From NCBI GenBank assembly GCA_016790815.1, contig JAEUOG010000063.1, positions 1 to 39,147 on the forward strand: a DNA stretch of 39,147 bases, read 5' to 3'. A model generated the notes under the pieces. The model made no database searches. It saw only the letters and a list, made by a program, of their open reading frames with translations, and had not been told where the DNA came from. A program made the position numbers and the translations under genes. The DNA is from Dechloromonas sp. GTDB taxonomy: Bacteria > Pseudomonadota > Gammaproteobacteria > Burkholderiales > Rhodocyclaceae. This document shows, piece after piece, positions 19,924-38,603 of the stretch (positions are counted from its first letter, which is position 1; every line of letters starts with the position of its first letter).

Positions 19924-20637
19924 ATGTCGCTGATCGAGCTTTCCGGCATCGAACGTCGCTTCCTACTCGGCGATACCACGGTCCACGCGCTGGCCGGACT
20001 GAATTTGCAGATCAACGCCGGCGAATACGTGGCCGTGATGGGCCCATCCGGCTCGGGCAAATCGACGCTGCTCAACCTGCTCGGACTGCTCGACCGCCCA
20101 AATGAGGGCACCTACAAACTCGAAGGCCGCGACGTGACGACGCTCTCACCCGATGAGCAGGCCACCGTGCGCAGCACGCGCATCGGCTTTGTTTTCCAGA
20201 GTTTCCACCTCGTGCCGCGCCTGACGGCGGCCGAAAACATCGCGCTACCGATGACGCTGGCCGGCACTCCGGCTACCGAGCGCAACCGTCGCGTCGCCCA
20301 GGCGCTCAAGGATTTCGGCCTCGACCAGCGCGCCGATCACAAGCCGGACCAGCTTTCCGGCGGCCAGCGCCAGCGCGTCGCCATCGCCCGCGCCACGATC
20401 ATGCAGCCGGCGCTCATTTTGGCCGATGAGCCGACCGGTAACCTCGACCGCCATACCGGCGACGAGGTGGTCAATCTGCTCGAAGCGCTCAACGCCAAAG
20501 GTGTCACGCTGATCGTCGTCACCCACGACCAGGGCATGGGTGCCCGCGCCCGGCGGCAGCTGATCATGGAAGACGGGCGACTGAAAGCCGATTTACAGCA
20601 GGCGACCATGCCAAATTTGGCCCAAATTTCCGGTTGA
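19924..20637 (+). CDS. ABC transporter ATP-binding protein (MacB/LolD-type)
   Basis: 237 residues. Walker A GPSGSGKST (~39-47), Q-loop, signature LSGGQRQRVAIARA, Walker B LILADEPTGNLD and H-loop THDQ are all present. The subfamily pattern (IERRFLLGDTTVHALAGL..., EPTGNLD) is the LolD/MacB-like class for mechanotransmission transporters. It pairs with the two permeases downstream. The last codons and stop overlap an inverted copy of the dispersed CCACGGTCAACCGGAAA motif. Confidence 0.96.
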   Translation: MSLIELSGIERRFLLGDTTVHALAGLNLQINAGEYVAVMGPSGSGKSTLLNLLGLLDRPNEGTYKLEGRDVTTLSPDEQATVRSTRIGFVFQSFHLVPRLTAAENIALPMTLAGTPATERNRRVAQALKDFGLDQRADHKPDQLSGGQRQRVAIARATIMQPALILADEPTGNLDRHTGDEVVNLLEALNAKGVTLIVVTHDQGMGARARRQLIMEDGRLKADLQQATMPNLAQISG

Positions 20638-20643
20638 CCGTGG
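20627..20643 (-). repeat. Perfect copy of the 17-bp dispersed motif (minus)
   Basis: TTTCCGGTTGACCGTGG is the exact reverse complement of CCACGGTCAACCGGAAA. It covers the last codons and TGA stop of the ABC ATPase gene. Identical 17-mers lie at 23663, 34762 and 36892. Confidence 0.85.
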
Positions 20644-20677
20644 CAGCCCCACTCAGCCCGGCCAGCCCCCGCCGATC

Positions 20678-21886
20678 ATGCGCCTGACCGACACCCTGCG
20701 CTTCGCCCGCGATGCCGCCACCGGCTACCCGATGCGCACGACGCTCTCTGTCCTCGCCATGTCAATCGGCGTCGCCGCCGTCGTCATCCTCACGGCGCTG
20801 GGCGACGGTGCGCGGCGCTACGTCGTCGCCCAGTTTTCCTCGCTCGGCACCAACCTGATCATCGTCCTCCCCGGCCGTTCGGGCACCGGCGGCTTCAATC
20901 CCGCCAATGCCATCACCAGCACACCACGCGACCTGACCATCGACGACGCCGGCAGCCTGCGCCGCCTGCCCGGCGTCCGCCGCGTCGCCCCGCTCGCCGT
21001 CGGCACCTCGGAAATCAATTTTGGCGGCAAGCTGCGTGAAGTCATGGTCGCCGGCTCGACGGCCGAGTTCATTCCGATCCGAAATTTCGAAATCGCCCAG
21101 GGTCAGTCCCTGCCCGAAGAAGACTGGAACCGGGGCTCGTCGGTAACCGTCATCGGCGCCAAGATCCGCGAAGAAATGTTCGGCAACAACCCGGCCATCG
21201 GCCAGCTCGTCCGCGTCGGCGACCGCCGGCTACGCGTCATCGGCGTGCTCAAATCGACCGGTCAGGGGCTCGGCATGAATACCGACGAACTGGTCATCGT
21301 CCCGGTCTCGCTCGCCCAGGCCATGTTCAATTCGAACACCCTGTTCCGCATCATGATCGAGGCCAACAGCCGCGATGCCATCCCCGGCGTCAAGGATCAG
21401 GCGATGGATACCCTCAAGCAGCGCCATCGCGGCGAAGAGGACGTCACCGTCATCACGCAGGATGCCGTGCTCGCCACCTTCGACAAGCTGCTCGGCGCGC
21501 TGACCCTGGCCGTGGCCGGCATTGCCGCGATCAGCCTGGCTGTCGCCGGCATTCTGGTCATGAACGTCATGCTCGTCGCCGTCACCCAGCGCACGGGCGA
21601 AATCGGGCTTTTGAAAGCGCTCGGTGCCACGGCGCGCACCATCCGCCTCGCCTTCCTGGCCGAAGCGGCCATGCTCTCGGCCGTCGGCGCGCTGGTCGGC
21701 TATCTGCTCGGCCAGCTCGGCGCCTTCGCGCTGCGCCAGTTCTTCCCGGTTTTCCCCGCCTATCCGCCGGACTGGGCGGTGATAGCCGGCCTGAGCACGG
21801 CACTCGCCACCGGCCTGATCTTCGGCGTCATGCCAGCCCGCCGCGCCGCCCGGCTCGATCCGGTACAAGCCTTGATGAAGCACTAG
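20678..21886 (+). CDS. MacB-like ABC permease 1
   Basis: 402 residues. Four membrane segments, one N-terminal (~25-45) and three C-terminal (~265-390), frame a large periplasmic MacB_PCD domain (~50-240). The C-terminal FtsX domain carries 'TGEIGLLKALGA' and ends 'ARRAARLDPVQALMKH', typical of MacB-type permeases. It couples to the ATPase upstream and the second permease downstream, where the next ATG starts 2 bases after the stop. Confidence 0.93.
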   Translation: MRLTDTLRFARDAATGYPMRTTLSVLAMSIGVAAVVILTALGDGARRYVVAQFSSLGTNLIIVLPGRSGTGGFNPANAITSTPRDLTIDDAGSLRRLPGVRRVAPLAVGTSEINFGGKLREVMVAGSTAEFIPIRNFEIAQGQSLPEEDWNRGSSVTVIGAKIREEMFGNNPAIGQLVRVGDRRLRVIGVLKSTGQGLGMNTDELVIVPVSLAQAMFNSNTLFRIMIEANSRDAIPGVKDQAMDTLKQRHRGEEDVTVITQDAVLATFDKLLGALTLAVAGIAAISLAVAGILVMNVMLVAVTQRTGEIGLLKALGATARTIRLAFLAEAAMLSAVGALVGYLLGQLGAFALRQFFPVFPAYPPDWAVIAGLSTALATGLIFGVMPARRAARLDPVQALMKH

Positions 21887-21888
21887 CC

Positions 21889-23088
21889 ATGCTCGCCGCA
21901 GATTCACTCCAGCTCGCCCTCCGCGCCATCACCGCCCAGCGCCTGCGCAGCTTCCTGACGCTGCTCGGCATCGCCGTCGGCATCGCGGCCGTCATTCTGC
22001 TCACCTCGATCGGTGAGGGCATCCACCGCTTTGTTCTGGGCGAGTTCAGCCAGTTCGGCACCAACAACATCAGCGCCATGCCGGGCAAGACGAAGACCGG
22101 CGGGGCGCCGTCCGGCCTGCCGTCGAGCGCCCGGCCGCTGACGCTGGAAGACGCGAAATCGCTGGAGCGCCTGCCGCACATCGTCGGCGTAACGCCCAAC
22201 GTACGCGGCAATGCCGAGATCGAGGGCAATGGCCGCACCCGGCGCACGCTGGTCTATGGCGTCAATTCGAAATCGCAGCTCGTCTTCAAGTCCACTGTGC
22301 GCAGCGGCCAGTTCCTGCCGCCTGACGACGAAGGCAGTGCCCGCGCTTTCGTTGTGCTCGGCGCCAAGGTCAAGGACGAACTGTTCGGTGCCGACAGCCC
22401 GCTCGGCCAGCGCCTGCGCATCGGCGGCCTGCATTTCCGGATCATCGGCGTCATGGAACCGAAAGGGCAGTTCCTCGGCATCGACCTCGACGACACCGTT
22501 TTCATCCCGGCGGCGCGCGGCCAGGAACTGTTCAACCGCGAAGGCGTGGACGAGATCAACATGGCCGTCGAGGAAGGCGCACCGGCCAAGTTGGTTGCCG
22601 AACGCATCCGCCAGCACCTGATCGAACGCCACGGCCGCGAGGATTTCACCCTTGTCACGCAGGAAGAAATGATGGCGACGCTGTCCAACATCCTCAACGT
22701 GCTGACCATGGCCGTCGGTGCGCTCGGCGGCATTTCGCTGCTCGTCGGCGGCGTCGGCATCGTCACCATCATGACCATCGCCGTCACCGAACGGACAGGC
22801 GAAATCGGCCTGCTCGTCGCCCTCGGTGCACCGCGGCGAACCATCCTCGCCCTCTTCCTCGGCGAAGCCGTCGCCCTTTCGGCGCTCGGCGGACTGTTCG
22901 GGCTGGTGCTGGGCATCGGCCTCACCCAGCTCATCCACTTCGCGCTCCCCGCCCTGCCCGTCCACACACCGCTCAGCTTCGTGCTTTTGGCCGAAGGCAT
23001 TGCCATCGCCATCGGGCTGACCGCCGGCGTCCTGCCGGCACGGAACGCCGCCCGGCTCGATCCGGTCGAAGCCCTGCGCACCGAGTAA
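21889..23088 (+). CDS. MacB-like ABC permease 2
   Basis: 399 residues with the same plan as its neighbour: N-terminal membrane helix, periplasmic MacB_PCD domain, and an FtsX C-terminal domain with 'TGEIGLLVALGAPRRTI' and 'ARNAARLDPVEALRTE'. Similar length and ending suggest a gene duplication, probably giving a heterodimeric membrane pair. The set (one adaptor, one ATPase, two permeases) differs from E. coli MacAB, where the ATPase and permease are fused. Confidence 0.93.
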   Translation: MLAADSLQLALRAITAQRLRSFLTLLGIAVGIAAVILLTSIGEGIHRFVLGEFSQFGTNNISAMPGKTKTGGAPSGLPSSARPLTLEDAKSLERLPHIVGVTPNVRGNAEIEGNGRTRRTLVYGVNSKSQLVFKSTVRSGQFLPPDDEGSARAFVVLGAKVKDELFGADSPLGQRLRIGGLHFRIIGVMEPKGQFLGIDLDDTVFIPAARGQELFNREGVDEINMAVEEGAPAKLVAERIRQHLIERHGREDFTLVTQEEMMATLSNILNVLTMAVGALGGISLLVGGVGIVTIMTIAVTERTGEIGLLVALGAPRRTILALFLGEAVALSALGGLFGLVLGIGLTQLIHFALPALPVHTPLSFVLLAEGIAIAIGLTAGVLPARNAARLDPVEALRTE

Positions 23089-23103
23089 GCAAGCTGCAAC
23101 AAC

Positions 23104-23119
23104 CATACGCTAACGTATG
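23104..23119. promoter_or_regulatory. Palindromic operator-like site upstream of phaJ-like gene
   Basis: CATACG-CTAA-CGTATG is a perfect 6+6 inverted repeat with a 4-base centre, 47 bases before the hydratase start. Its size suits a TetR-type dimer site. The gene's role in fatty-acid metabolism makes a lipid-responsive repressor plausible, but this is inference. Confidence 0.45.
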
Positions 23120-23166
23120 TTAGAGTTTCGTTTCCAACTTCAACAAACCCAGCAAGGAGTCCAGCC

Positions 23167-23586
23167 ATGGCGTATCACATCGATCAACTCGAACCCGGCA
23201 TGTCAGCCAGCACGTCCAAGACCGTCACCGAAACCGACATCATCCTGTTCGCCGGCATTTCCACCGACGTCAACCCGGCCCACCTCGACGAGGAATACTG
23301 CAAGGGCACGATGTTCGGCACCCGCATCGCCCACGGCATGCTATCGGCCGGTTTCATCTCCGCCACCCTGGCCAACAAGCTGCCCGGCCCTGGCACCATC
23401 TACCTGTCGCAGACGCTGAAGTTCAAGGCCCCGGTCAAGCCGGGTGACACCGTGACCGCCACCGTCACCGTGCGCGAAGTCAATGTCGCCAAGAACCGTG
23501 TGATTCTCGACACGGTGTGCACCGTCGCCGGCAAGACCGTCATCGAAGGCGAATGCGTCATGATGCCGCCGGTTCGCGCCGCCTGA
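23167..23586 (+). CDS. phaJ: MaoC-like (R)-specific enoyl-CoA hydratase (PhaJ type)
   Basis: 139 residues, hot-dog fold. The hydratase signature is intact: FAGISTDVNPAHLDEEYCKGTMFGTRIAHGM with catalytic Asp/His pair (D...H). PhaJ enzymes hydrate trans-2-enoyl-CoA to (R)-3-hydroxyacyl-CoA, linking beta-oxidation to polyhydroxyalkanoate synthesis; no PHA synthase gene is in the window. AAGGAG lies 9 bases upstream of ATG. A convergent terminator follows. Confidence 0.9.
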   Translation: MAYHIDQLEPGMSASTSKTVTETDIILFAGISTDVNPAHLDEEYCKGTMFGTRIAHGMLSAGFISATLANKLPGPGTIYLSQTLKFKAPVKPGDTVTATVTVREVNVAKNRVILDTVCTVAGKTVIEGECVMMPPVRAA

Positions 23587-23602
23587 TTTTCGGCAAGGCA
23601 AA

Positions 23603-23637
23603 AAAACGCCGGCCCGGTTAAATCCGGCCGGCGTTTT
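23603..23637 (+). terminator. Strong hairpin terminator between convergent genes
   Basis: AAAACGCCGGCC pairs with CGGCCGGCGTTTT around a short loop, with A-tract and T-tract on the two sides. It can act in both directions, but the dispersed repeat separates it from the convergent rlu gene. Confidence 0.85.
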
Positions 23638-23662
23638 GTCTTTCAGTGGCTGAGCCGTGTTT

Positions 23663-23679
23663 CCACGGTCAACCGGAAA
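23663..23679 (+). repeat. Perfect copy of the 17-bp dispersed motif
   Basis: Exact CCACGGTCAACCGGAAA between the phaJ terminator and the convergent rlu gene. It is followed by an AATCACCCAAAAATCAG-like tail that is similar to the tail of the copy at 36892, so the repeat unit is longer than 17 bp. Confidence 0.85.
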
Positions 23680-23692
23680 AATCACCCAAAAA

Positions 23693-24913
23693 TCAGAAAG
23701 CCTCGTCCGGGCGCAAAAAGCGCCACTGACCCATGGGCAGATCACCCAGCCTGATCCGGCCAATCCGCACGCGTTTCAAACCGATCACGTGCAAGCCGAC
23801 CAGTTCGCACATGCGGCGAATCTGACGCTTCTTGCCTTCCTTCAGGATGAAATGCAGCTGGTCTTCATTCAACTGCTTGATCCAGGCCGGCTTCAGAGGC
23901 TTGCCATCGAGCTCCAGACCATGACGCAGCAGATCGAGTCCGCCCTTGATCAACTCGCCTGAAACGCGAACCAGATATTCCTTCTCAGCGTCGCTGTCCT
24001 CGCCAATCAGACGCTTGGCCACCCTGCCATCACTTGTCAGCACCAGCAAGCCCGTCGAATCGATGTCCAGCCGCCCGGCCGGCGCCAGACCGCGCAACAT
24101 CCACGGCTTGAACTCCGGGCCAATCGAATTGGGCGCCTGATTTTCGGCCGTAATCAGCGTCACCGCCGGCACACAATCCGGCTCCGGCTGGCCAGAAACA
24201 TAGCCCACCGGCTTGTGCAGCAGGATGGTCACGGCCTTCGCCTGATCCTTCTTCGCATCCTGCGTCACGGTGATCTCGGACGACTGCGGATCAACAATAC
24301 GCGTACCGAGTTCGCTGACCTGTTCGCCATTCACGAACACCCAGCCGCGCTCGATCCACAAATCGGCCTCGCGGCGCGAACACATGCCACGCTCCGACAT
24401 CACCTTGGACAAACGCACACCTTCCGGCGTCGGGCCTTCGCGAACGACCGCCACCTTGGGTGCGGACGCAGGTCTGGCCGCACGTTCCGGACGACCCGGA
24501 CGATCCGTCTTGCGCGCCCAAGCCGATTTCGGCTCCGATGAAGCGACACGTTCAACCGGCGCAGCCTTCGGCACAGACGGCTTCCTCAACGACGAACCGC
24601 CCCGCAACGGCAACTTGCCCCACTCGCGCGGCACGGAGCGACGAACGCTCAGCGTCCCGGTCGGATCGACGGGCTTTTCTTCTACCACCGGCGCCACGAC
24701 TTCCGGCGCAGGCCGACGAGCCCTCGCCGGCGCCGCATCCGCCGATTTGGTTTTGGGCTTTTTTTCCCGGTCGACCGCAGGCGTGGCGCGTGTTTCACGC
24801 TCTCCGGCGTCAGCGCTCCCATCCGGAGCGCCGGCAACCGGCTTGGCCTCAGCCTTGGGCGCTACCGCCTCCGGCTTGCGCCATTTGCCCCAGGGATCGT
24901 CGGAACCGCTCAT
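23693..24913 (-). CDS. RsuA/RluB/RluF-type 23S rRNA pseudouridine synthase
   Basis: 406 residues. Catalytic core from ~165: S4-like RNA-binding domain ([19 protein letters not shown]), then the RsuA-family synthase with [11 protein letters not shown], the catalytic Asp in [17 protein letters not shown], and the C-terminal KKRQIRRMC motif. The N-terminal ~160 residues are low-complexity Ala/Pro/Lys/Arg, typical of RluB-like proteins of proteobacteria. Length and motifs fit RluB or RluF; the exact target uridine cannot be decided here. It overlaps the FKBP stop as ATGA. Confidence 0.92.
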
Positions 24914-25254
24914 CGCAGACCGAGGAGTTCAACCTCGAAAACCAGCGTTGCATTCGGCGGAATAACGCCGCCAGCGCCGCGTGCGCCGTAGCCGAGTTGC
25001 GGCGGAATGGTCAGCTTGCGCGTGCCACCGATCTTCATGCCCTGGACGCCTTCGTCCCAACCGCCGATAACCTGACGCATGCCGAGCGAAAACTCGAACG
25101 GGTCGTTGCGATCCTTGCTCGAATCAAACTTGCTGCCATTGGTCAGCCAGCCCGTGTAATGCACGATGACCTGCTGGCCAGCCTTGGCCTCGGCGCCTTC
25201 GCCGACAACGGTATCTTCATAGACCAGCCCGGAGGCGGTGGTGATTTCAGCCAT
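24910..25254 (-). CDS. FKBP-type peptidyl-prolyl isomerase
   Basis: 114 residues from ATG 25254 with AAGGAG before it. The fold is a single FKBP domain: [17 protein letters not shown]-x-[26 protein letters not shown], and FEVELL at the end. All active-site aromatic positions are in place. It is cytoplasmic, with no signal peptide. It acts as a prolyl isomerase/chaperone. Its stop overlaps the start of the rlu gene. Confidence 0.95.
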
Positions 25255-25307
25255 GGGAACTCCTTTTTTCAAAGACGGGCAGTTTACCACACCCCCACGA
25301 CAAGGCT

Positions 25308-25335
25308 TTGACTTGTCAGAGAATTTCCGTATAAT
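25308..25335 (+). promoter_or_regulatory. Sigma-70 promoter of rplU-rpmA
   Basis: TTGACT (25308-25313) and a perfect TATAAT (25330-25335) are separated by 16 bases, 48 bases before the rplU start. This is the strongest consensus promoter in the window and suits a highly expressed ribosomal operon. Confidence 0.8.
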
Positions 25336-25383
25336 GCGCGGTTCTTTGTAGCACCCTTTAGATTTATTTTCGGAGTCCAACCC

Positions 25384-25695
25384 ATGTATGCGGTCATAAA
25401 AACCGGCGGTAAGCAGTATCGCGTTACCAACGGTCTAAAACTTAAAGTAGAACAGATACCGGCAGACGTTGGCGCAGAAGTTACTCTCGACCAGGTCCTC
25501 ATGGCAGGCGAAGGCGAGTCGGTAAAGATCGGCGCTCCCTTCCTTGCTGGCGCCACCGTCAAAGCCACCGTGATTTCCCACGGCCGCCACGACAAGGTCA
25601 AGATCTTCAAGATGCGTCGTCGTAAGCACTACCAGAAGCATCAAGGCCATCGTCAGAACTACACCGAATTGCGCATCGACGCGATCGCGGCCTAA
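25384..25695 (+). CDS. rplU: 50S ribosomal protein L21
   Basis: 103 residues, full length. Opens [14 protein letters not shown] and ends with [21 protein letters not shown], typical L21 with its rRNA-binding basic C-terminus. It is the first gene of the usual rplU-rpmA-obgE cluster. Confidence 0.98.
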
Positions 25696-25712
25696 GTTCA
25701 AGGAGCTAATAA

Positions 25713-25976
25713 ATGGCACACAAGAAAGCAGGCGGTAGTTCACGTAACGGCCGCGACTCACAAGCCCAACGACTGGGCGTCAAGCGCTACGGCGGTCAAT
25801 TCATCCTGGCTGGCAACATCATCGTTCGCCAGCGTGGCACCGAATTCCACCCGGGCGACAACGTCGGCTGCGGCAAGGATCACACCCTGTTCGCACTCAA
25901 GGACGGCGTGGTTCAGTTCTCCATCAAGGGCTTGAAAAAGCGCCGCGTGGTGACCATCGTTCCGGCTGCCGAATAA
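25713..25976 (+). CDS. rpmA: 50S ribosomal protein L27
   Basis: 87 residues. [22 protein letters not shown] is the flexible N-terminus that reaches the peptidyl-transferase centre; [10 protein letters not shown] is the family signature. An AAGGAG site lies just before the start. A hairpin terminator follows within 20 bases. Confidence 0.98.
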
Positions 25977-25993
25977 ATCGGCCAAGCGGAAGC

Positions 25994-26024
25994 AAAAGCC
26001 CCGTCCGCAGGATGGGGCTTTTTA
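25994..26024 (+). terminator. Terminator after rpmA
   Basis: AAAGCCCC and GGGGCTTT pair across a stem-loop with a T5 run, 18 bases after the rpmA stop. It probably attenuates read-through from the ribosomal genes into obgE. Confidence 0.85.
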
Positions 26025-26073
26025 GTTTATATGCCCGGATTTTCGGGTAGCACCATCCCTCGCGGATTTATAG

Positions 26074-27168
<1,095 letters not shown>

Positions 27169-27171
27169 ACC

Positions 27172-27462
27172 ATGCTGACACTCGAACAACTTCGCGAAAA
27201 AAGAGAGGCTTTGATTGCTCTCGCCGACCAGCATAAAGCTGAGAACGTACGTGTTTTCGGCTCAGTGGCGCGGGGCGAAGAAAACGAGAACAGTGATGTT
27301 GACCTGCTGGTTCACTTTCGCGACGGCGCCTCGCTGTTCGACCTGATCCACCTGATTGACGACACATCTGCGCTTATTGACACCAAAGTTGACATTGTTT
27401 CCGATGGTGGCCTATCTCCTTATCTGGCTAAGCGGATTCTTTCGGAAGCAATTCCACTGTGA
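27172..27462 (+). CDS. mntA: MntA-type nucleotidyltransferase antitoxin
   Basis: 96 residues. G30-S31-x10-D42-x-D44 (FGSVARGE...NSDVDLL) is the complete GSX10DXD motif of minimal nucleotidyltransferases. MntA antitoxins AMPylate or otherwise neutralise the HepT toxin next door. The base composition is visibly AT-richer than obgE or proB. It starts 3 bases after obgE and overlaps hepT (GTGA). Confidence 0.92.
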   Translation: MLTLEQLREKREALIALADQHKAENVRVFGSVARGEENENSDVDLLVHFRDGASLFDLIHLIDDTSALIDTKVDIVSDGGLSPYLAKRILSEAIPL

Positions 27463-27806
27463 GCAAAAAGGATCCGAACGTATACCTTGCCCACGCACGA
27501 GATTGCTGCGAGAGGGTTCTCGAATACACCCAAGAAGGCCCATCCAGCCTGTTTCACGACCAAAAAACACAGGATGCTGTTCTGCGAAATCTTGAAATCA
27601 TTGGCCAATGCTTCAAAGACGCCAATCTGACGCAGCTAGAAAGCGAGTATCCGAATGTTCCCTGGCGAGACATTGCTGCCTTTCGCAACATTCTTGCACA
27701 TGCCTATCTTGGTGTTGAATTAAAGATCGTCTGGGACATCATCGAACATCAGGTTCCACCGCTCTTCGCACAACTTAATCAGATACTAGAAAATTGGAAC
27801 CCTTGA
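27459..27806 (+). CDS. hepT: HepT-like toxin (HEPN ribonuclease)
   Basis: 115 residues from GTG 27459. The HEPN motif R76-N-I-L-A-H81-A-Y83 (RX4HXY) is intact, so toxin activity is predicted. The start overlaps the antitoxin stop, and the toxin stop overlaps the likely start of proB. AT-rich like its partner, suggesting horizontal acquisition. Confidence 0.92.
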
Positions 27807-28918
27807 CCCGCCTCGCCACTGCCAAACGCCTTGTCGTCAAAGTCGGCTCGGCGCTCGTCACCAATAACGGCGCGGGCCTTGACCTTGCAGCCATCGAAGA
27901 CTGGGCACGCCAGATTGCCACGCTGCGCCAGGCGGGACGCCAGATCGTCCTCGTCTCGTCCGGCGCCGTCGCCTGCGGCGTGCAGCGCCTCGGCTGGGGC
28001 CGCCGACCGAAGACTGTTCATGAAAAGCAGGCCGCTGCCGCCGTCGGTCAGGCCGGGCTGGTCGAAGCCTACGAAGCCGCCTTCGCCAAGCACGGCCTGC
28101 ACACGGCGCAGATCCTGCTCACTCACGATGACCTCGCCGACCGCAAGCGCTATCTCAACGCCCGCTCGACGCTGACCACCCTGCTCGAACTCGGCGTCGT
28201 ACCAATCATCAACGAAAACGACACGGTCATTACCGACGAAATCAAGTTCGGCGACAACGACACCCTGGGCGCCTTGGTCGCCAATCTGATCGAAGCCGAC
28301 GCCCTGATCATTCTTACCGACCAGATCGGCCTATTCACCGCCGACCCGCGCAAGGACCCCAACGCCACGCTGATCAGCGAAGCCACGGCCGGCGACGAAT
28401 CGCTCGAAGCCATGGCCGGCGGCGCCGGCACGCGCGTCGGCACCGGCGGCATGATCACCAAGGTCATCGCCGCCAAACGCGCCGCCCGCAGCGGCGCGCA
28501 CACTGCCATCGCCAGTGGCCGCGAAATCGACCCGATCATCCGCCTGGCCGCCGGCGAGCCCGTTGGCACCCTGCTCGTCGCCCAAACCCAACCCCTCGCC
28601 GCCCGCAAGCAATGGCTCGCCGACCACCTGCAACTCGCCGGGCGCCTGCGCCTCGACGATGGTGCGGTCAACGCCCTGAAAGCCGGAAAAAGCCTGCTGC
28701 CCATCGGCGTCATCGCCGCCGAAGGTGAATTCGAGCGCGGCTCGGTGGTTTCCTGCATCAGTCCGTCGGGACATGAAATTGCACGCGGACTCTGCAACTA
28801 CGGCAGCGGCGAAGCCCGCCTGATTACGCGCAAATCCACAGCCGAAATCGAGAGCATTCTTGGCTATGTCGACGAACCGGAATTCATTCACCGGGACAAT
28901 CTGATCCTCTTTTCCTGA
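27803..28918 (+). CDS. proB: Glutamate 5-kinase
   Basis: 371 residues from TTG 27803 ([22 protein letters not shown]); a TTG at 27794 could add three residues. It makes glutamyl-5-phosphate, the first proline step. Kinase core motif [25 protein letters not shown], and a C-terminal PUA domain are intact. There is no ATG start; the TTG overlaps the hepT stop. In relatives proB usually follows obgE directly, so the toxin-antitoxin pair may have displaced its original start. Confidence 0.9.
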
Positions 28919-28940
28919 GGATATGGGCGCGACTACAAAC

Positions 28941-28965
28941 AAAGGGCACCAAGGTGCTCTTTTTC
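28941..28965 (+). terminator. Terminator after proB
   Basis: AAAG-GGCACC and GGTGCT-CTTTT form a compact stem with AA loop and a T5 tail, 23 bases after the stop. Confidence 0.8.
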
Positions 28966-29132: not shown

Positions 29133-29161
29133 AAAAAAACGGGAGCCGAAGCTCCCATTTT
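29133..29161 (-). terminator. Terminator of the porin gene
   Basis: GGGAGC-CGAA-GCTCCC is a perfect tetraloop hairpin; on the minus strand it is followed by T7. It lies 23 bases past the porin stop. Confidence 0.9.
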
Positions 29162-29183
29162 AGTACATCTGGTTTAAACCAGA

Positions 29184-30224
29184 TTAGAACATGTGACGCA
29201 GACCAACAAGGTAAGCGTTGCTGTCGCCGTCTTTTGCGTTGTCAACACGCTTGCCGGTGATACCAGCGTAAGCGGTCGTACGCTTGGAGAGCGCGTAGGT
29301 TGCAGCAACGGTAGCAGCGTGGACATTGTCCTTGGCAGCCGTTGACTTCACAGTGTTGTGAGCGTATTCAGCGATGACAGCAACCTTTGCGCCAACCGGA
29401 ACGGTGGCGGAAAGCAGCCACAGGTTGTCAGAGCCAAGGGAAAGAGCCTGAGACTTGGCGGTCTGATACTGAGCTTGCAGTTTGACAACATTGAAGTCGT
29501 AACCACCGCGCAGACCCCATTCGGTGACGTTGTTGTTGGCACCAGACATGGTAGCACGGGTGTAGATTGCACCAGCTGTGAGCGGGCCGTTGGCATAGCT
29601 CAGCGACAGCAGATCGCCGTGAGAATCGGTGTTGCCGGTCGTGCCAGCGGTTTCAGACACACGAGCGTGGTTGTAAGCAACGGTCAGGCCACCAAAGGAC
29701 GGCGAGATGTAGGCTATTGCGTTGGAGTGACGACCGCCTTCAAGAGCGGAAATCAGGTGAGTAGCTGCTGCTGCCTGGAGGCCATTACCCTTGTGGGCAA
29801 CGCCGAGGCCGGTAGAGCCACCCAGAGCAGAACCGGCGACCGTGAAGTCAAGACCGGTGGTCTGCAGGTGACCTGCAACAGCCGTACCAAAACCACCGGT
29901 CAGGCCAACGAACTGCTGGCGAGCAACAGCGGAAGTGGTTGTGCTGTAGCCGATACCGTTTGAACCATCGATACCCAGGCCGTATTCCAGAACGAACAGA
30001 GCCTTCAGGCCATTACCCAGATCTTCAACGCCCTTGAAACCGATACGTGAGGTAGACAGGCCACCGGAATTAATGCCGTATTGGGTTTGCTTGCCAGCAG
30101 CGCCCAGGTAAGTATTGGCAACGAAGTTGGCATCAGCGATACCGTAGATGGTGACGTTGGTTTGTGCGAAAGCGGCGGTAGAGGCCAGAGCGGCAACAGC
30201 CAGAGCAATAATCTTCTTTTGCAT
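29184..30224 (-). CDS. General porin (porin_4 type)
   Basis: 346 residues. Signal peptide MQKKIIALAVAALASTAAFA, then QTNVTIYGIADANF (the classic betaproteobacterial porin start), GFKGVEDLGNG, and C-terminal NAYLVGLRHMF ending in Phe. It is a trimeric 16-strand outer-membrane channel. The codon usage is biased to few codons, as in highly expressed genes. GGAGA precedes ATG. An inverted repeat CGGATC-N9-GATCCG lies in the leader at 30288-30308. Confidence 0.95.
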   Translation of the reverse strand: MQKKIIALAVAALASTAAFAQTNVTIYGIADANFVANTYLGAAGKQTQYGINSGGLSTSRIGFKGVEDLGNGLKALFVLEYGLGIDGSNGIGYSTTTSAVARQQFVGLTGGFGTAVAGHLQTTGLDFTVAGSALGGSTGLGVAHKGNGLQAAAATHLISALEGGRHSNAIAYISPSFGGLTVAYNHARVSETAGTTGNTDSHGDLLSLSYANGPLTAGAIYTRATMSGANNNVTEWGLRGGYDFNVVKLQAQYQTAKSQALSLGSDNLWLLSATVPVGAKVAVIAEYAHNTVKSTAAKDNVHAATVAATYALSKRTTAYAGITGKRVDNAKDGDSNAYLVGLRHMF

Positions 30225-30287
30225 CAGAAAATCTCCTTAGTGGTTAGTTTTTAATCCAGCAGTAAAACCGAATTAAGCTTTACCTCT

Positions 30288-30308
30288 CGGATCGAGAAGT
30301 TGGATCCG
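30288..30308. promoter_or_regulatory. Inverted repeat in the porin leader
   Basis: CGGATC, nine bases, GATCCG. It may be a transcript hairpin in the 5' leader or a protein-binding site controlling the porin. No match to a known regulator is claimed. Confidence 0.35.
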
Positions 30309-30481
30309 ATTGTCGCAAAGAGCGAAACGCCCTAGCAACCGGTGATTGGCATGTTGGGATGCTTCTCTGCGCTTCTGTTGTTTTGATGCAACACCTGAAT
30401 TTGCCCGAATGGCCTTTTCTGCGGCGTTAATTTCCCGATACGGCGGCCTGCGACCCGTTACCGCAGGCCACTGCTTTACTA
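30309..30481. other. Spacer between porin leader and higA
   Basis: No coding capacity recognised. One strong hairpin, GGCCTGCG-N9-CGCAGGCC (30445-30469), lies 12 bases past the higA stop and lacks a T-run; it may be a weak or Rho-assisted end of higBA. Confidence 0.4.
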
Positions 30482-30787
30482 TCAAGCCGCCGCTTGATGA
30501 AAGACACGGATACGCGGCGCGATTTTCTCTTGCAGGGTACGAGCAACGGTCCGCATATCGTACTCAGTTTGCAGGTTCAGCCAGAAACGCGGCTCCATTT
30601 CGAAGAAAAGGCCCAGGCGTAGCGCTGTATCGGCCGTGATGGGCCGGGTGCCGTGCACGAGCTCACTAATGCGACTCGGCGATACGTCAATATCCGCCGC
30701 AAGCTGGCGGGCCGAGATACCCAGCGGCTTCATAAAGTCTTCCAGCAGAATTTCGCCGGGGTGGATTTCGTCAAGTAGTTCAGCCAT
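30482..30787 (-). CDS. higA: HigA-type antitoxin (XRE family)
   Basis: 101 residues from ATG 30787, with GGAG six bases upstream. HPGEILLEDFMKPLGISARQLA...SPSRISELVHGTRPITADTALRL is the HigA-type helix-turn-helix with its conserved 'HPGE.L.E' opening. It binds HigB and represses the higBA promoter. It follows higB, the order typical of HigBA. A matching palindrome lies upstream of higB. Confidence 0.95.
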   Translation of the reverse strand: MAELLDEIHPGEILLEDFMKPLGISARQLAADIDVSPSRISELVHGTRPITADTALRLGLFFEMEPRFWLNLQTEYDMRTVARTLQEKIAPRIRVFHQAAA

Positions 30788-30796
30788 GTTCAACTC

Positions 30797-31075
30797 CTAG
30801 TGGTAGTCCACAATTTCAACTTGGTATGCCCCGTCTTCTTTCCAGACAAAGCACACACGCCATTGACCGTTGACGCGGATACTGTGCTGCCCTTTGCGGT
30901 CGCCTTTGAGGGCTTCGAGCTGATTTTCCGGGGGAACCCTCAAGTTCAGCAGCACGGTAGCGGCGTGCAGTTGCAGTAATTTGCGTCGAGCCACACGCTC
31001 GATGTTCCTGAACCGGGGCACGGCCTGACTATGAAAAAGCGCCTCGGTATCGAGACAGGTGAACGAGTGGATCAT
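30797..31075 (-). CDS. higB: HigB-type toxin (RelE superfamily)
   Basis: 92 residues. MIHSFTCLDTEALF..., 'PRFRNIERVARRKLLQLHAA', 'PPENQLEALKGDR.GQHSIRVNGQWRVCF' and the ending 'VEIVDYH' are the HigB/RelE-like pattern. It is a ribosome-dependent mRNA endonuclease in known relatives. The toxin gene comes first, antitoxin 9 bases downstream. Confidence 0.95.
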   Translation of the reverse strand: MIHSFTCLDTEALFHSQAVPRFRNIERVARRKLLQLHAATVLLNLRVPPENQLEALKGDRKGQHSIRVNGQWRVCFVWKEDGAYQVEIVDYH

Positions 31076-31085
31076 GCGCCATTGT

Positions 31086-31102
31086 GTTCCGCAATACGGA
31101 AC
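31086..31102. promoter_or_regulatory. higBA operator palindrome
   Basis: GTTCCG-CAATA-CGGAAC is a perfect 6+6 inverted repeat with a 5-base centre, 11 bases upstream of the higB start. Its place and symmetry fit the HigA dimer operator (autoregulation by a HigA-type repressor). Confidence 0.7.
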
Positions 31103-31235
31103 CTGTAAATCAGATTTTTTCAGTTGCGTGGGGGTGCTGCCTCAAACGCTTTTGATTTTGTCGCGGACTGCATTGGCTTTGAGGATTTGGTACGAAACGA
31201 TCCCGCAAGCCCACTTCGCGCTGATGGCGCGTAGC

Positions 31236-32051
31236 TTAAGGTCGAGCGCCGACCGTCGCATTTCCGGCAAATAGCCTTGCCAGCTCGGCACCCGGTTCCG
31301 GCGCGCGCATAAAGGCTTCGCCGACGAGGAAGGCGCTGACCTTGTTCTGCTGCATTAGCGCGACGTCTTCCGGAGCCAGGATGCCGCTTTCGGTGACGAC
31401 GATCTTGTCGGCGGGGATGCGCGACAGGAGGCCGAGGGTGGTTTGGAGCGTGACTTCGAAGGTGCGCAGGTTGCGGTTATTGATGCCGAGCAGCGGGGTC
31501 TTGAGTTGCAGGGCGACATCGAGCTCTTCACCGTTATGCACTTCGACGAGCACGGCCATGCCGTAGACGTGGGCTTGTGCTTCGAGGGCCTGCATTTCCG
31601 CCAGCGTCAGCGCGGCGGCGATGAGCAGGATGGCATCGGCGCCCATGGCGCGGGCTTCGGCAACTTGATAGGCGTCGACCATGAAGTCCTTGCGCAGCAC
31701 GGGCAATGCACAGGCGGCGCGGGCGGCTTGCAGGTATTCGGGACAGCCCTGGAAGTATTGGCGGTCGGTGAGCACCGACAGGCAGGCGGCGCCGTGCTGC
31801 TCGTAGCTGCGGGCGATGTCGGCCGGGTGGAAGTCCGGGCGAATGACGCCTTTGGACGGGCTGGCCTTTTTGATTTCGGCGATTATTGCCGGTTGACCGT
31901 GGGAGAGCTTGTTGCGGATGGCACCGACGAAATCGCGCGGCGCGGGCTGGGCGGCGGCTTCGGCCTCAACGGCGGCAAGCGGTTTGACTGCCAGTGCGGC
32001 GGCGATTTCTTCGCGCTTGGTGGCGATGATTTTGTTGAGGATGTCGCTCAT
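31236..32051 (-). CDS. trpC: Indole-3-glycerol phosphate synthase
   Basis: 271 residues from ATG 32051 ([16 protein letters not shown]), overlapping the trpD stop. TIM-barrel with catalytic [29 protein letters not shown] and LLIAA motifs. It makes indole-glycerol phosphate in tryptophan synthesis. The DNA coding for '[12 protein letters not shown]' matches the dispersed repeat (31867-31903) almost exactly. Unusually, the repeat is in frame with the conserved catalytic segment. Confidence 0.96.
31867..31903 (-). repeat. Near-identical copy of the dispersed repeat within trpC
   Basis: Read on the minus strand, this 37-base segment starts CCCACGGTCAACCGG and differs from the intergenic copy at 36891-36927 at only three positions. 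It encodes the conserved lead-in to the TrpC active site, so its own sequence is constrained by the protein. Confidence 0.75.
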
Positions 32052-33076
32052 TTCACCGCCAACTTCTGCGTGCATTCGACAAACTGCGCGAGCTTGGCAC
32101 GCGCCGCACCGCTTGCAATGGCTTCGCGCGCCTTGAGGATGCCGTCGCCGATGCTGTCGGCGACGTTGGCGACGTAGAGCGCGGCGCCGGCGTTGAGGCA
32201 GACAATTTCGCGGGCGGCGCCCGGTTTGTTGTCGAGGGCGCCGAGCATGACAGCCTTTGATTCTTCGGCGCCATCAACGCGCAGGTTGCGCAGGGACATC
32301 ATTTGCAGGCCGAAGTCTTCGGGGTGCACTTCATACTCGGTGACTTCGCCGTTTTTCAGTTCGCCGACCAGGGTGGCGGCGCCGAGCGAGATTTCGTCGA
32401 GATTATCGCGGCCGTGCACGACCAGCACGCGTTCGGCGCCGAGGCGTTGCATGACGCGAACCTGAATGCCGACGAGATCAGGGTGGAAGACGCCCATCAG
32501 GGTGTTCGGGGCGCTCGCCGGGTTGGTCAGCGGGCCGAGGATATTGAACAGCGTGCGCACGCCCATTTCGCGGCGCACCGGGGCGACGTGCTTCATGGCG
32601 CTGTGATGGTTGGGGGCGAACATGAAGCCGATGCCGCAGGCTTCAATGCAGGCGGCGACCTGCTCGGGCGAGAGCATGATGTTGGCGCCGAGGGCTTCCA
32701 GCACGTCGGCGCTGCCGGAACTGGATGAAACGCTGCGCCCGCCGTGCTTGGCGACTTTGGCGCCGGCGGCAGCGGCGACGAAAATGGAGGTCGTCGAGAT
32801 ATTGAAGCTGTGGGCCGAATCGCCGCCGGTGCCGACGATGTCGACGAAGCGGTTGTCGTAGGGCACTGCGACCTTAGTCGACAATTCGCGCATGACGCTG
32901 GCGGCAGCGGCGATTTCGCCGATGGTTTCTTTCTTGACGCGCAGCCCGGTGATGATGGCGGCGATCATGACCGGCGTGACTTCGCCGCCCATGATCTGGC
33001 GCATCAGGGAGACCATTTCGTCGTGGAAAATTTCGCGGTGTTCGATGACACGCTGGAGGGCGGCTTGCGGGGTCAT
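32048..33076 (-). CDS. trpD: Anthranilate phosphoribosyltransferase
   Basis: 342 residues from ATG 33076, overlapping the trpG stop by ATGA. Motifs include [36 protein letters not shown], and [14 protein letters not shown]. It transfers phosphoribose to anthranilate. Full family length. Confidence 0.97.
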
Positions 33077-33645
33077 TTCTTGAATTCGTCCAGAAAGTTC
33101 TTGAGCAGGTCGTGACCGCGTTCGGTCAGGATGGATTCGGGGTGGAACTGCACGCCTTCGACGGCCAGCGTCTTGTGGCGGACGCCCATGATTTCGCCGT
33201 CGTCTGTCCAGGCGGTGATGTCGAGGCAATCGGGCAGCGATTCGCGCTCGATGGCCAGCGAGTGGTAGCGGGTGCAGGTCAGCGGGTTGGGCAGGTCTTT
33301 GAAAACACCCTCGTTTTTGTGGTGGACCGCAGAAACCTTGCCGTGCATCAACTGCTTGGCGTGGATGATCTTGCCACCGAAGGCTTCGCCGATGGACTGA
33401 TGGCCGAGGCAGACGCCGAGTAGCGGGATCTTGCCGGCGAATGCCTTGATGGCGGCCAGCGAGATGCCGGCCTGGGCCGGGGCGCAGGGACCGGGGGAGA
33501 TCACCAGATATTCGGGCTTGAGCCGGGCGATTTCGTCGACGGTGATGGCATCGTTGCGATACACCTTGACGTCCTGACCGAGCTCGCCGAAGTACTGGAC
33601 GATGTTGTAGGTGAAGCTGTCGTAGTTGTCGATCATCAGCAGCAT
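33073..33645 (-). CDS. trpG: Anthranilate synthase glutamine amidotransferase subunit
   Basis: 190 residues. [19 protein letters not shown] is the canonical opening; [15 protein letters not shown] carries the nucleophile Cys; the late FHPES gives His and Glu of the triad. It supplies ammonia to TrpE. It is the first gene of trpGDC here and no trpE lies beside it; the upstream region is a divergent glycosyltransferase gene. Confidence 0.97.
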
Positions 33646-33744
33646 GCTGTTGATTCCTTGTTGATTCGTGATTCGGCGATTTTACATTAAACGTGGAATC
33701 CGGCCTTTTGGATTAAAATGCTGCCTTTCCCGCCGGATTCACCC

Positions 33745-34755
33745 ATGAGCACCGATCTTTCGATTGCCCCGCACAGCCTTTCCATCGTTGTCCCGTTCTA
33801 TAACGAGGAGGAAAACATCGCGCCGCTGGTCAAGCGCGTGCATGAGGCGCTGGTTGGTTACGACCATCCGTGGGAACTGGTGCTGGTTGACGACGGCAGC
33901 AGCGATGCGACCGTGGACCGTGCCGTGCAGTGTTCGCGCGAATATGGCCCGCACGTTCGCGTCGTTGAACTGACGCGCAATTTCAAGCAGACGGCAGCCA
34001 TGCAGGCCGGCATCGACGCGGCGCGTGGCGACGTGATCGTGACCATGGATGGCGATCTGCAGAATGATCCGATCGACATTCCGCGCATGGTTGCCCGGCT
34101 GATCAACGAAGATCTCGATCTGGTCGCCGGCTGGCGGCAGAACCGCCAGGACGGCCTGTTCCTGCGCAAGATTCCGTCGAAGATCGCCAACAAGCTGATC
34201 GCCCGGATGACCGGCGTGCATCTGCGCGACTATGGCTGCAGCCTGAAGGCTTTCCGCGGCAGCGTGATCAAGAGCGTGCGCCTGTACGGCGAAATGCACC
34301 GTTTCATCCCGGCCTGGCTGGCTACCGTGACGACGCCGCGCCGCATCGCGCAGGAGCCGACGACGCACCATGCGCGCACGGCTGGCGTGTCGAAATACGG
34401 TATCTCGCGCACCTTCCGGGTCATTCTCGATTTGATCGCGGTCTATTTCTTCATGCGCTTCCGCGCCCGGCCCGGCCACTTCTTTGGCGGCATCGGCCTC
34501 GGCCTGACGGCGATGTCCGGCCTGATCATGACTTGGCTGGCCTGGGTCAAATTCGGCCTCGGCGAAAACATCGGCGGCCGTCCGCTGCTGATCGTCGGCA
34601 TCGGCACGCTGATTGCCGGCATTCACTTCATCACGACCGGCGTGCTGTCCGAACTGCTGGCCCGCATCTATTTCGAATCCGGGACCATCCGCTCCTACTC
34701 GGCGCGCCCGGAACGCGTCCTGGCAGCTGACGAAGGCTGGCACAAGTCGGCGTGA
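33745..34755 (+). CDS. ArnC-like/GtrB-like family 2 glycosyltransferase
   Basis: 336 residues from ATG 33745. GT-A fold with IVVPFYNEEENI, VDDGSSD, and the DxD-like MDGDLQNDP, then two C-terminal membrane helices (~230-320). Such enzymes transfer a sugar to undecaprenyl phosphate at the cytoplasmic face. With the ArnT-like gene downstream (GTGA overlap), it probably makes the lipid-linked sugar donor. Sugar identity is unknown. Confidence 0.92.
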   Translation: MSTDLSIAPHSLSIVVPFYNEEENIAPLVKRVHEALVGYDHPWELVLVDDGSSDATVDRAVQCSREYGPHVRVVELTRNFKQTAAMQAGIDAARGDVIVTMDGDLQNDPIDIPRMVARLINEDLDLVAGWRQNRQDGLFLRKIPSKIANKLIARMTGVHLRDYGCSLKAFRGSVIKSVRLYGEMHRFIPAWLATVTTPRRIAQEPTTHHARTAGVSKYGISRTFRVILDLIAVYFFMRFRARPGHFFGGIGLGLTAMSGLIMTWLAWVKFGLGENIGGRPLLIVGIGTLIAGIHFITTGVLSELLARIYFESGTIRSYSARPERVLAADEGWHKSA

Positions 34756-36215
34756 GCCTTTCCACGGTCAACCGGAAAAACAGCGTAAAACTGCTGTTTG
34801 GCCTGACGGCCGCATTGCTCGCCTGGCGCTTCTGGCTGCTGCCCAATCTGGGCATCACGCTCTACGTCGATGAGGCGCAATACTGGACCTGGGCGCAGCA
34901 TCTGGATTGGGGCTATTTCTCCAAGCCGCCCGGCGTCGCGGCGCTGATCTGGCTGTCCACCGCGCTGTTCGGCGACGGGCTGGTCGGCGTCAAGGCACTT
35001 TCGATGCTCTGCTATCCGCTGGCTGCGGCGGCGTGTTGGGCGATTGCCCGCCGCCTTTACGACGAGCGTGTCGCCTTCTGGTCGGCCGTTGCAGTGCTGA
35101 CCCTGCCGATTTTTTCCTGGCTCGGCCTGTTCGTTTCCACCGATGCGTTGCTCACGCTGCTCTGGGCGCTGGCGCTGTGGGCCTTCCTACGCGCGCTGGA
35201 CAGCGATTCGTGGGGCGACTGGCTGTTGCTCGGTCTGGTCTGCGGCCTCGGCCTGCTCTCCAAATACACGATGGCGGCGTGGCTCGGCGCGGCCTTCCTG
35301 TTCCTGCTGGCGTTTCACCCGCCACGCCTGGCTTCGGCCAAGCCCTGGCTGGCGGTTGGGCTGGCGCTGTTGATCCTGTCGCCGAATATTGTCTGGAATT
35401 TCACCCACGATTTTCCGACGCTCAAGCACACCGCCGACATCACGCTGAACCGCGCTGCCGGCGGTGGGCTGGCTTCGCTCGGCGAGTTTTGGGCGGCTCA
35501 ATGGATCGCCTTCGGCCCGGTGCTCGGCAGTGTTTTCGTGCTGCTCCTCGTCCGCGTTCGCGAAAGCTGGCGCGACGACCGGACCCGGCTCCTGCTCTGG
35601 TTCGCGCTGCCGCTGTGGATCGTCGTCTCGGCGCAAGCCATGAAGAGCAGCGCCAACGCCAACTGGGCGGCCCCCGCCTTCGCACCGGCCGTCATCGCCG
35701 CCGTCGCCTGGCTGCTGCAGCGCGAGAAGAAAAAGCTGCTGATTGCCGGCCTGGCAATCAATCTATTGGTCGTCGGGCTCGTCTATCACTGGCCGCAGGT
35801 GATTGCTGCGGTCAACCCGGAAAAACAGGCAAAATTGAACCCGTTCAAGCGCGCCATGGGCTGGGACGAACTGGGGCGACAACTAAAACCGATCCTGCTC
35901 GCCCACCCGGACAGCGTACTGGTCGCCGACAACCGTACCCTGCTCGCCCACATGCTCTACGAACTGCGTGACCTCAAGCCTGCCGCCGCCAGCTGGAACC
36001 CATCCGGCGTCGCCAGCGACCATTACAAGCTGACGACCGACCTGCGCCCTTACATCGGCAAGGATGCGATCCTGATCACCGACACCGCACCGGGCGCCGA
36101 CTTCGCCCCGCGCTTCGCCAGCATTGAAAAGTTGGCGACCCTGAAAGCGCCGCTCGACGCCGCGACCAGCCGCGACATGGATGTTTATCTGCTGCATGAC
36201 TTCCAGGGCTATTGA
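34752..36215 (+). CDS. ArnT/PMT-like lipid-linked glycosyltransferase
   Basis: 487 residues from GTG 34752, overlapping the preceding stop. About ten to twelve membrane helices; the first periplasmic loop has YVDEAQYWTWAQHLDWGYFSKPPG, with the Asp/Glu of GT-C (ArnT, PMT) enzymes. It would transfer a sugar from a lipid carrier to lipid A or another envelope target. Odd: its first ~15 codons are largely made of a copy of the dispersed repeat (STVNRKNSVK). Confidence 0.92.
   Translation: MSLSTVNRKNSVKLLFGLTAALLAWRFWLLPNLGITLYVDEAQYWTWAQHLDWGYFSKPPGVAALIWLSTALFGDGLVGVKALSMLCYPLAAAACWAIARRLYDERVAFWSAVAVLTLPIFSWLGLFVSTDALLTLLWALALWAFLRALDSDSWGDWLLLGLVCGLGLLSKYTMAAWLGAAFLFLLAFHPPRLASAKPWLAVGLALLILSPNIVWNFTHDFPTLKHTADITLNRAAGGGLASLGEFWAAQWIAFGPVLGSVFVLLLVRVRESWRDDRTRLLLWFALPLWIVVSAQAMKSSANANWAAPAFAPAVIAAVAWLLQREKKKLLIAGLAINLLVVGLVYHWPQVIAAVNPEKQAKLNPFKRAMGWDELGRQLKPILLAHPDSVLVADNRTLLAHMLYELRDLKPAAASWNPSGVASDHYKLTTDLRPYIGKDAILITDTAPGADFAPRFASIEKLATLKAPLDAATSRDMDVYLLHDFQGY
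34762..34778 (+). repeat. Perfect copy of the 17-bp dispersed motif in the 5' end of the ArnT-like gene
   Basis: Exact CCACGGTCAACCGGAAA starting 10 bases after the GTG start codon; the unit continues to about 34790. It encodes residues 4-9 of the protein in frame. Confidence 0.85.
35809..35843 (+). repeat. Possible weak copy of the dispersed repeat in the ArnT-like gene
   Basis: GCGGTCAACCCGGAAAAACA is similar to the 34762 copy with one extra C and flank changes. It may be chance, as it is inside the coding region and the match is only partial. Confidence 0.3.
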
Positions 36216-36885
36216 GCTTCGCGTCGCCGGCGTCGTGTTCGCGCTGCTGGCGGTGCTCTTCGTGGCGTTTCCGGAAATTGATCTGGCCGCCAGCGGCGCT
36301 TTTTATCAGGATGGCCGCTGGGCGTTTTCAGGCGGCAACTGGCCGTTCTTCGAACTGCTGTACCGCGGCACGCCGCGCGTCGGTCAGGCGCTGCTCATTG
36401 TCCTCGCCAGCGGCCTGCTGCTTGGCAGCATCAAGCGCCTGACCTGGCTGCATGCCCGGCGGACAACCTTCGGTTTCCTGCTCGCAGCGGCGCTGCTCGG
36501 GCCGGTGCTGCTCGTCGACGCGACGCTCAAGGATGGCTGGCACCGGGCGCGCCCGGCCACAGTGGCCGAATTCGCCGGGCCGCTCACCTTCACGCCGGCC
36601 TTCGTGGTCAGCGACCAGTGCCCGAAGAATTGCTCCTTCGTCAGCGGTCACGTGGCCACCGCCGCCTTCGTCATGGCCTTCGGCTGGCTCGGTGCTCCCG
36701 CTGTGCGTCGGCGCTGGTTGCTGGCCAGCCTGGCCACCGGCACGCTGCTCACCGTGGTGCGCATGACCGCCGGCGGACATTTCCTGTCCGACACCATCTT
36801 CGCGTGGTTCGCGACCTATTTCAGCCTGTGGCTGACGGAATGGGTTTTCCGACGGCTGAAATGGCTACCGCCGACCGAAAAATAA
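36196..36885 (+). CDS. PAP2-superfamily phosphatase (lipid phosphatase/LpxE-like)
   Basis: 229 residues from ATG 36196, with an overlap into the previous gene; a start at 36181 is possible. Five or six membrane helices. PAP2 motifs are intact: KDGWHRARP (K-x6-RP), CSFVSGH (the SGH motif) and R-x5-H-x3-D in RMTAGGHFLSD. It likely removes phosphate from an undecaprenyl or lipid A substrate, which fits the ArnC/ArnT-like neighbours. Confidence 0.93.
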   Translation: MTSRAIELRVAGVVFALLAVLFVAFPEIDLAASGAFYQDGRWAFSGGNWPFFELLYRGTPRVGQALLIVLASGLLLGSIKRLTWLHARRTTFGFLLAAALLGPVLLVDATLKDGWHRARPATVAEFAGPLTFTPAFVVSDQCPKNCSFVSGHVATAAFVMAFGWLGAPAVRRRWLLASLATGTLLTVVRMTAGGHFLSDTIFAWFATYFSLWLTEWVFRRLKWLPPTEK

Positions 36886-36891
36886 GCATTC

Positions 36892-36908
36892 CCACGGTCA
36901 ACCGGAAA
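36892..36908 (+). repeat. Perfect copy of the 17-bp dispersed motif
   Basis: Exact CCACGGTCAACCGGAAA, seven bases past the PAP2 stop. The extended unit (36891-36927) matches the trpC segment at 34 of 37 positions. It is followed at once by a terminator hairpin. Confidence 0.85.

Positions 36909-37178: not shown

Positions 37179-38603
<1,425 letters not shown>

Follow-up and report, generated by a model that had tools for sequence, protein, structure and literature searches.

The stretch of DNA analysed here (hereafter 'the window') comprises positions 1 to 39,147 of contig JAEUOG010000063.1 (assembly GCA_016790815.1), from a bacterium of the genus Dechloromonas. Its genes, among them trpC and genes for an ABC ATPase, a PMT_2 glycosyltransferase, and a PAP2 protein, as well as the gaps between genes, carry copies of a dispersed 41-bp motif, GAYTNCCACGGTCAACCGGAAAWWWCGGCCAAAATTGAAAT, which consists of a core and A/T tracts separated from one another by roughly a turn of the helix. 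An initial annotation, made from the letters of the window alone, had drawn attention to a repeated 17-mer; the motif is looser and more frequent than this 17-mer, which represents its strictest spelling. Judged by its sequence, the motif, which recurs about every 2.5 kb in the source bacterium, bears the hallmarks of the 'self' tags by which some bacteria recognize own-kind DNA prior to uptake.

Motif sites along the window

All four exact copies of the 17-mer are found at the places and on the strands initially annotated, each within a 41-bp unit (scores in brackets are those of the profile described in the following section). The copy at 20627–20643 (minus strand) belongs to a unit at 20608–20648 that overlaps the 3′ end and stop of the ABC ATPase gene (42.2), and the copy at 23663–23679 (plus) to an intergenic unit at 23658–23698 (40.4). 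That at 34762–34778 (plus) lies in a unit occupying the first codons of the PMT_2 glycosyltransferase gene (34757–34797; 33.3), which is re-spelled in relatives, and that at 36892–36908 (plus) in a unit 7 bp past the PAP2 gene (36887–36927; 39.2). Allowing three or fewer mismatches, the 17-mer matches the window six times, whereas 100 shuffled versions gave 0.17 matches on average. One copy with a single mismatch (31886–31902, minus), which the initial annotation did not contain, lies within trpC, in a unit at 31867–31907 (35.9).

The profile recognizes 19 sites scoring above 12 in the window. The two sequences previously described as degenerate relatives of the 17-mer, near 3958 and 35809, are indeed present, but they are units of a second spelling: one at 3951–3991 (plus) in the gap between a lysR-type gene and crcB (39.4), and one at 35801–35841 (plus), spelled CTGCGGTCAAC, within the PMT_2 gene, which has the top score in the window (44.0). 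Further second-spelling units are located at 6806–6846 (plus; 40.5), at 11337–11377 (plus; called intergenic; 30.6), in an HlyD-type gene at 19019–19059 (plus; 35.6), and, with a palindromic core, at 24745–24785 (minus; 37.6). A unit with the core CGGTCCAC lies within a predicted gene at 5902–5942 (plus; 32.4), and two units in coding sequence read CTACGGTCGAC (10188–10228, minus; 35.3) and CTGCGGTCCAC (33297–33337, minus; 28.0). Weaker units occur in the orotidine monophosphate (OMP) decarboxylase gene at 8056–8096 (plus; 22.4), in coding sequence at 28657–28697 (plus; 20.7), and in a Lyase_1 (fumarase/aspartase-type) gene at 37939–37979 (minus; 23.4); marginal ones are at 4432–4472 (minus; 14.4) and 19971–20011 (plus; 13.9). 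The strong site at 6806–6846 is carried by an N6-adenine methyltransferase-like gene (Eco57I/N6_Mtase; 6528–7709) that adjoins the OMP decarboxylase gene.

Abundance, architecture and placement in the source genome

The genome to which the window belongs (G000 in our numbering of the genomes compared; 2.54 Mb in 81 contigs, 76% complete) contains 227 copies of the 17-mer with up to two mismatches (118 and 109 on the two strands), against one match of a reversed control pattern; the initial annotation understated its case. Exact copies occur at 47 places among the matches listed. The same genome also contains the second spelling, GCTGCGGTCRAC, in 270 copies, against none of its control. Alignment of the flanks of 152 exact copies extended the 17-mer to the full unit: conservation runs from −5 to +35, counted from where the 17-mer starts, and does not extend beyond, giving GAYTN CCACGGTCAACCGGAAA WWW C GGCC AAAATTGAAAT, of which the flanks alone count as evidence because the copies were picked by the exact 17-mer. 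At the tract positions A and T are interchangeable and G or C is seldom seen, the tracts being separated by about 11 bp. The core CGGTCRACCG, palindromic according to the initial annotation, is nearly so, whereas the unit as a whole lacks this symmetry.

Training of a profile on 20 stretches of this genome plus the window (439 kb in all) gave the form TGC[TC][GA]CGGTC[AG]AC, with A/T tracts at +12 to +16 and +23 to +27, the core being partly given because the seeds were required to contain CGGTCRAC. In the same 439 kb, 173 sites score above 14, compared with one in a single Markov shuffle, so that the over-representation expected of uptake sequences is seen on both strands with the 17-mer, the second spelling, and the profile alike. 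Above a score of 12 there are 178 sites, or about one per 2.5 kb, after de-duplication, in which palindromic cores matched on both strands are counted once (pairs listed 13 bp apart are such cores); the counts given below by reading frame, position within genes, intergenic context, and spelling by place are without de-duplication.

Gene calls by a home-made codon model place 125 of the 178 sites (70%) in coding sequence and 49 between genes, with four partial; as 12% of the bases are non-coding, sites are 2.3-fold enriched in intergenic sequence (p about 2e-8). The earlier statement that perfect copies sit at gene ends, gaps, and gene starts thus applies to the four exact copies in the window, and seven of the nine exact 17-mers in the 439 kb are intergenic, but it does not describe the motif family. 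Coding sites occur at all relative positions in genes and favour two of the six frame and strand classes (55 + 40 = 95 of 126). The spacing of sites is more even than random (coefficient of variation 0.66 vs. 0.98 ± 0.07), with none of 2000 simulations equally even. In the single-contig chromosome OU015322, sites are present in all 20 stretches sampled (400 kb), 62 on the plus and 70 on the minus strand (p = 0.54); when sorted by GC-skew arm, they weakly favour the sense of the lagging strand (76 to 56, p = 0.10), and one contig of the source genome has a strand lean of 27 to 13 (p = 0.04).

This placement resembles that of known uptake sequences, which are evenly spaced, less so than is expected of compaction sites, and free of orientation bias, according to the accessible part of PMC1939737. 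In Haemophilus influenzae 65% of copies lie within genes (PMC1626085). As in that species, the Dechloromonas sites combine even spacing and an intergenic excess with a mostly coding location, and in the OU015322 stretches they are found all round the chromosome without significant replication orientation bias.

Origin of coding copies, dialects and distribution

Alignments to other genomes were obtained for 64 of the 178 sites and subjected to the gap test on orthologues previously applied to Haemophilus (PMC1626085). The coding set (48 sites, 144 distinct alignments) comprises 82 pairs in which the relative has the motif, 55 in which it does not (profile score of 6 or less; from 19 sites), and seven in between. 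In none of the 55 motif-less pairs is the unit interrupted by a gap of 30 or more, and the longest gap measures 15 bases; seven pairs are gapped there, compared with six and five in the flanking control windows, and identity falls within the unit (0.68 vs. 0.80). The trpC unit at 31867–31907 aligns without gaps in all 19 relatives shown, and in a wider set a few distant pairs among the matches listed have small gaps. On these alignments, coding copies in general, and the trpC unit in particular, formed by substitution in place, without insertion.

Orthologous sites are also re-spelled between species, in the manner of the clade-specific dialects of uptake sequences. The site near 35809 reads CTGCGGTCAAC in the source genome, CCACGGTCAAC in G002, G011, and OU015322, and CTGCGGTCGAC in G019 and G020, and it is replaced in G015. 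When five relatives with few 17-mers were ranked by k-mer content (80 kb each, without the motif being supplied), the TGCGGTCRAC family came top among 11-mers in G019, G029, and G031 and more weakly in G023, and it was not top in G034. The A/T tract at +23 to +27 recurs in the relatives as in the source genome, clearly so in G029 and G031. These last two also contain doubled palindromic copies (e.g. ttgttgctgCGGTCGACcgcagcaacaa; L219–L226), apparently two overlapping signals of opposite orientation and possibly terminators.

Across the genus, the pattern TGCGGTCRAC-N16-WWWW reaches at least 100 copies in 22 of 60 genomes, 20 to 99 in 12, and fewer than 20 in 26, with controls at 3 or below. 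The CCA spelling abounds in G002 (656 copies), G011 (484), OU015322 (402), and the source genome (227); G033 has 129 copies and G004 has 73. In a trpC tree of 21 genus members, from which the motif codons had been removed, the three CCA-spelling genomes G002, G000, and G011 cluster with a support of 0.999; only this clade is used, the one-gene tree having an artefact branch (G015, G017). A count over the order (300 genomes) shows GCTGCGGTCRAC in abundance in just two members of the genus (270 copies in G000, 362 in G147), with 19 copies in one more member, G254. In the family's other genera, six genomes have 0 to 3, and the remainder of the 300 have 14 or fewer. A mild excess of GCTGCGGTCRAC was seen in eight genomes of family f13, genus g13 (6 to 14 copies vs. 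0 to 5 for the control). Class-wide, in 369 genomes, the spaced pattern occurs at most four times in each of the 368 besides G000; patterns of this kind would miss other spellings elsewhere. Among named genomes the 17-mer is found in at least 114 stretches, which among the matches listed belong mainly to metagenome-assembled genomes titled Azonexaceae, Azonexus, Dechloromonas, Rhodocyclaceae, or Betaproteobacteria, with a few titled only Proteobacteria or Gammaproteobacteria and one locus each in Stenotrophomonas and Pseudomonas; the family name Azonexaceae as used below is taken from such titles. A phage-borne motif was considered and rejected: a scan of a viral collection returned five contigs with one exact 17-mer each (L311–L315), none with the long consensus.

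A probable uptake signal and its relation to known systems

We consider it likely that the motif serves natural transformation as a DNA uptake signal, and the uptake-signal-like character that the initial annotation had offered as one of two possibilities is well supported by the sequence comparisons above. DNA bearing the core and A/T tracts would be recognized by a receptor on the surface, belonging to the competence type IV pilus, which would lead to preferential uptake of own-kind DNA; recombination of the DNA thus taken up would drive the motif through the genome and maintain it there, and a changed receptor preference would re-spell it, producing dialects. Such a signal would jointly explain the abundance of the motif, its tracts, its even spacing, the origin of copies by substitution, the conserved but re-spelled sites, and the patchy distribution within one genus. 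Genes for ComEC and type IV pilins are present. In the source genome, ComEC (779 aa) combines the domains DUF4131, Competence, and Lactamase_B; across the genus ComEC was found in 33 of 37 genomes and ComEA, above the cut-off, in 25 of 37. A minor pilin operon of the source genome (L268:9930–16760, minus strand), adjoining a LytB/ispH gene, includes GspH, PilX, and PilY1 and ends in a ComP_DUS-family pilin (E = 6e-23).

Several observations weigh against an uptake signal. In Pseudomonas the end of the operon is the position of PilE, and for this reason membership of the ComP_DUS family does not prove that the pilin is a receptor; the last gene of this PilX–PilY1 operon may be an ordinary PilE. 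Pilins of that family occur in 53 of 60 genomes of the genus, motif-rich and motif-poor alike, and the presence or absence of ComP_DUS, ComEC, and ComEA across the genus does not separate the two groups. Neither the source genome (76% complete) nor G014, which is rich in the motif and 100% complete, yielded a ComEA above the cut-off. Among other motif-rich genomes, G002, G007, and G018 gave only partial or split matches to ComEC, and G020 (74% complete) gave no match. A density of about one site per 2.5 kb is below that of classic signals, for which the part of PMC1626085 available gives nearly one per kb. Finally, of 24 intergenic comparisons nine lack the motif, and eight of these nine are gapped, one of them by 30 or more, although two of the nine visibly carry a shifted core and are misaligned, so that the intergenic set decides nothing. 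Separately, a search of solved structures with the minor pilin of the source genome returned various types of pilin, of which none bears the label ComP, besides a single weak match that looks like chance. Partial or split ComEC genes (G002:C33:143311–144033; G007:C10 and C17; G017:C8:1085724–1086371) may reflect contig breaks or decay of competence.

The initial annotation's other possibility was an element of the repetitive extragenic palindromic (REP) type. Such an element, or one like a miniature inverted-repeat transposable element (MITE), whether mobilized by a REP-associated tyrosine transposase or by some different enzyme, would account for the dispersal of near-identical copies, for their sharp 3′ boundary, and for the intergenic majority of the exact 17-mers. 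The initial annotation had suggested looking for a matching transposase; the transposase family Y1_Tnp was found in none of the three 17-mer-richest genomes among those counted (G000, G002, and G011, of which the first and last are 76% and 85% complete), although it is present in 30 of 60 genomes searched, including G033 with its 129 copies. The unit shows no stronger folding than shuffled sequences do (z-scores of +0.75 and +0.78), and sites are re-spelled in place. For the coding copies compared, the gap-free trpC unit among them, a mobile-element origin is refuted by the missing insertion gaps, and we regard this explanation as very improbable overall. Terminators or RNA elements are hardly credible either: some copies adjoin terminator-like hairpins, and doubled palindromic copies exist in relatives, but the single unit lacks a hairpin and lies mostly within genes and in both orientations.

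A binding site for a protein of the nucleoid or of chromosome organization, as in the Noc, SlmA, MatP, KOPS, and Chi systems, would explain the even spacing, and it would suit the near-palindromic core, the spread along the whole chromosome, and the weak strand leans reported above. It would not explain the patchiness or the dialects, that is, abundance in some species of the genus and near absence from others, and strand bias over the chromosome is not significant, which sets aside a replication-oriented site; to our knowledge, none of the sites named resembles a long asymmetric site with A/T tracts. We think this explanation unlikely. The operator of a global transcription regulator recognizing the dyad CGGTYRACCG, for which the dyad core and the intergenic enrichment might be cited, deserves scarcely any credence given 70% of sites in genes at all relative positions, a site about every 2.5 kb, and no concentration in divergent gaps (13 of 55 intergenic sites in gaps that make up 23% of intergenic bases).

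If the Dechloromonas motif is a functional uptake signal, its family would be the third with such signals, after Neisseriaceae and Pasteurellaceae, the only families known to discriminate DNA in this way according to the available part of a 2025 account (PMC12616744). In the literature searched, which took in few subscription papers or preprints and no supplements, no uptake signal is reported for Azonexaceae among the matches listed, no paper joins Dechloromonas with 'uptake sequence', and none contains any of four long motif strings; a motif-discovery paper does not name Dechloromonas in its main text (PMC5217627), and the accessible portion of the D. aromatica genome paper mentions no uptake sequence (PMC2907700). 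A genus whose members have, lack, or re-spell the signal would permit study of the origin, spread, alteration, and loss of uptake signals, and its receptor could be sought by comparing these members. Because Rhodocyclales are abundant in wastewater plants (as stated in the consulted part of PMC7054561), the signal would also bear on who exchanges genes with whom there.

Compared with known systems, the motif resembles REP elements and bacterial interspersed mosaic elements (BIMEs) in being dispersed in many copies, the best of them intergenic, and differs from them in the transposase, folding, and substitution evidence already given. With the DNA uptake sequences (DUS) of Neisseriaceae it shares dialects within a taxonomic group, some members of which lack the signal (PMC3630211, in the part available), and ComP_DUS-family pilins. 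It differs in sequence: DUS have the inner core CTG and are of the GCCGTCTGAA type, a repeat that is unlike our motif and absent from the top k-mers listed in the five relatives. DUS moreover are without flanking motifs, to judge from the available part of PMC1626085, and partly consulted sources put them at about 2200 to 5900 per genome, several-fold above the strict motif counts in this genus.

The uptake signal sequences (USS) of Pasteurellaceae (Hin-type AAGTGCGGT, Apl-type ACAAGCGGT) differ from the motif, whose betaproteobacterial genus includes many species without it, in several respects: the core extends to CGGTCRAC(CGG), the tracts lie further from GCGGT, and the CCACGGT spelling breaks GCGGT. 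The 9-bp core AAGTGCGGT or ACAAGCGGT is not contained in TGC[TC][GA]CGGTC[AG]AC, with which it has only TGCGGT(CA) in common. The likenesses are GCGGT within the core of the TG spelling, two downstream A/T-rich segments about a helical turn apart, the location of about two-thirds of copies in genes, on both strands and without insertions (PMC1626085), and two related spellings divided by clade (PMC1626085 and PMC12616744, in the parts available). Because the old spelling leads in genes (66 vs. 37 sites) and exact new copies are mostly intergenic, we tentatively suggest, as a possibility rather than an expectation, that the source genome has been caught part-way through a dialect change from TGCGGTCRAC to CCACGGTCAACCGGAAA in one clade, within a third uptake-signal system that would use the Haemophilus mode of recognition, a GCGGT core read jointly with A/T tracts spaced by helical turns.

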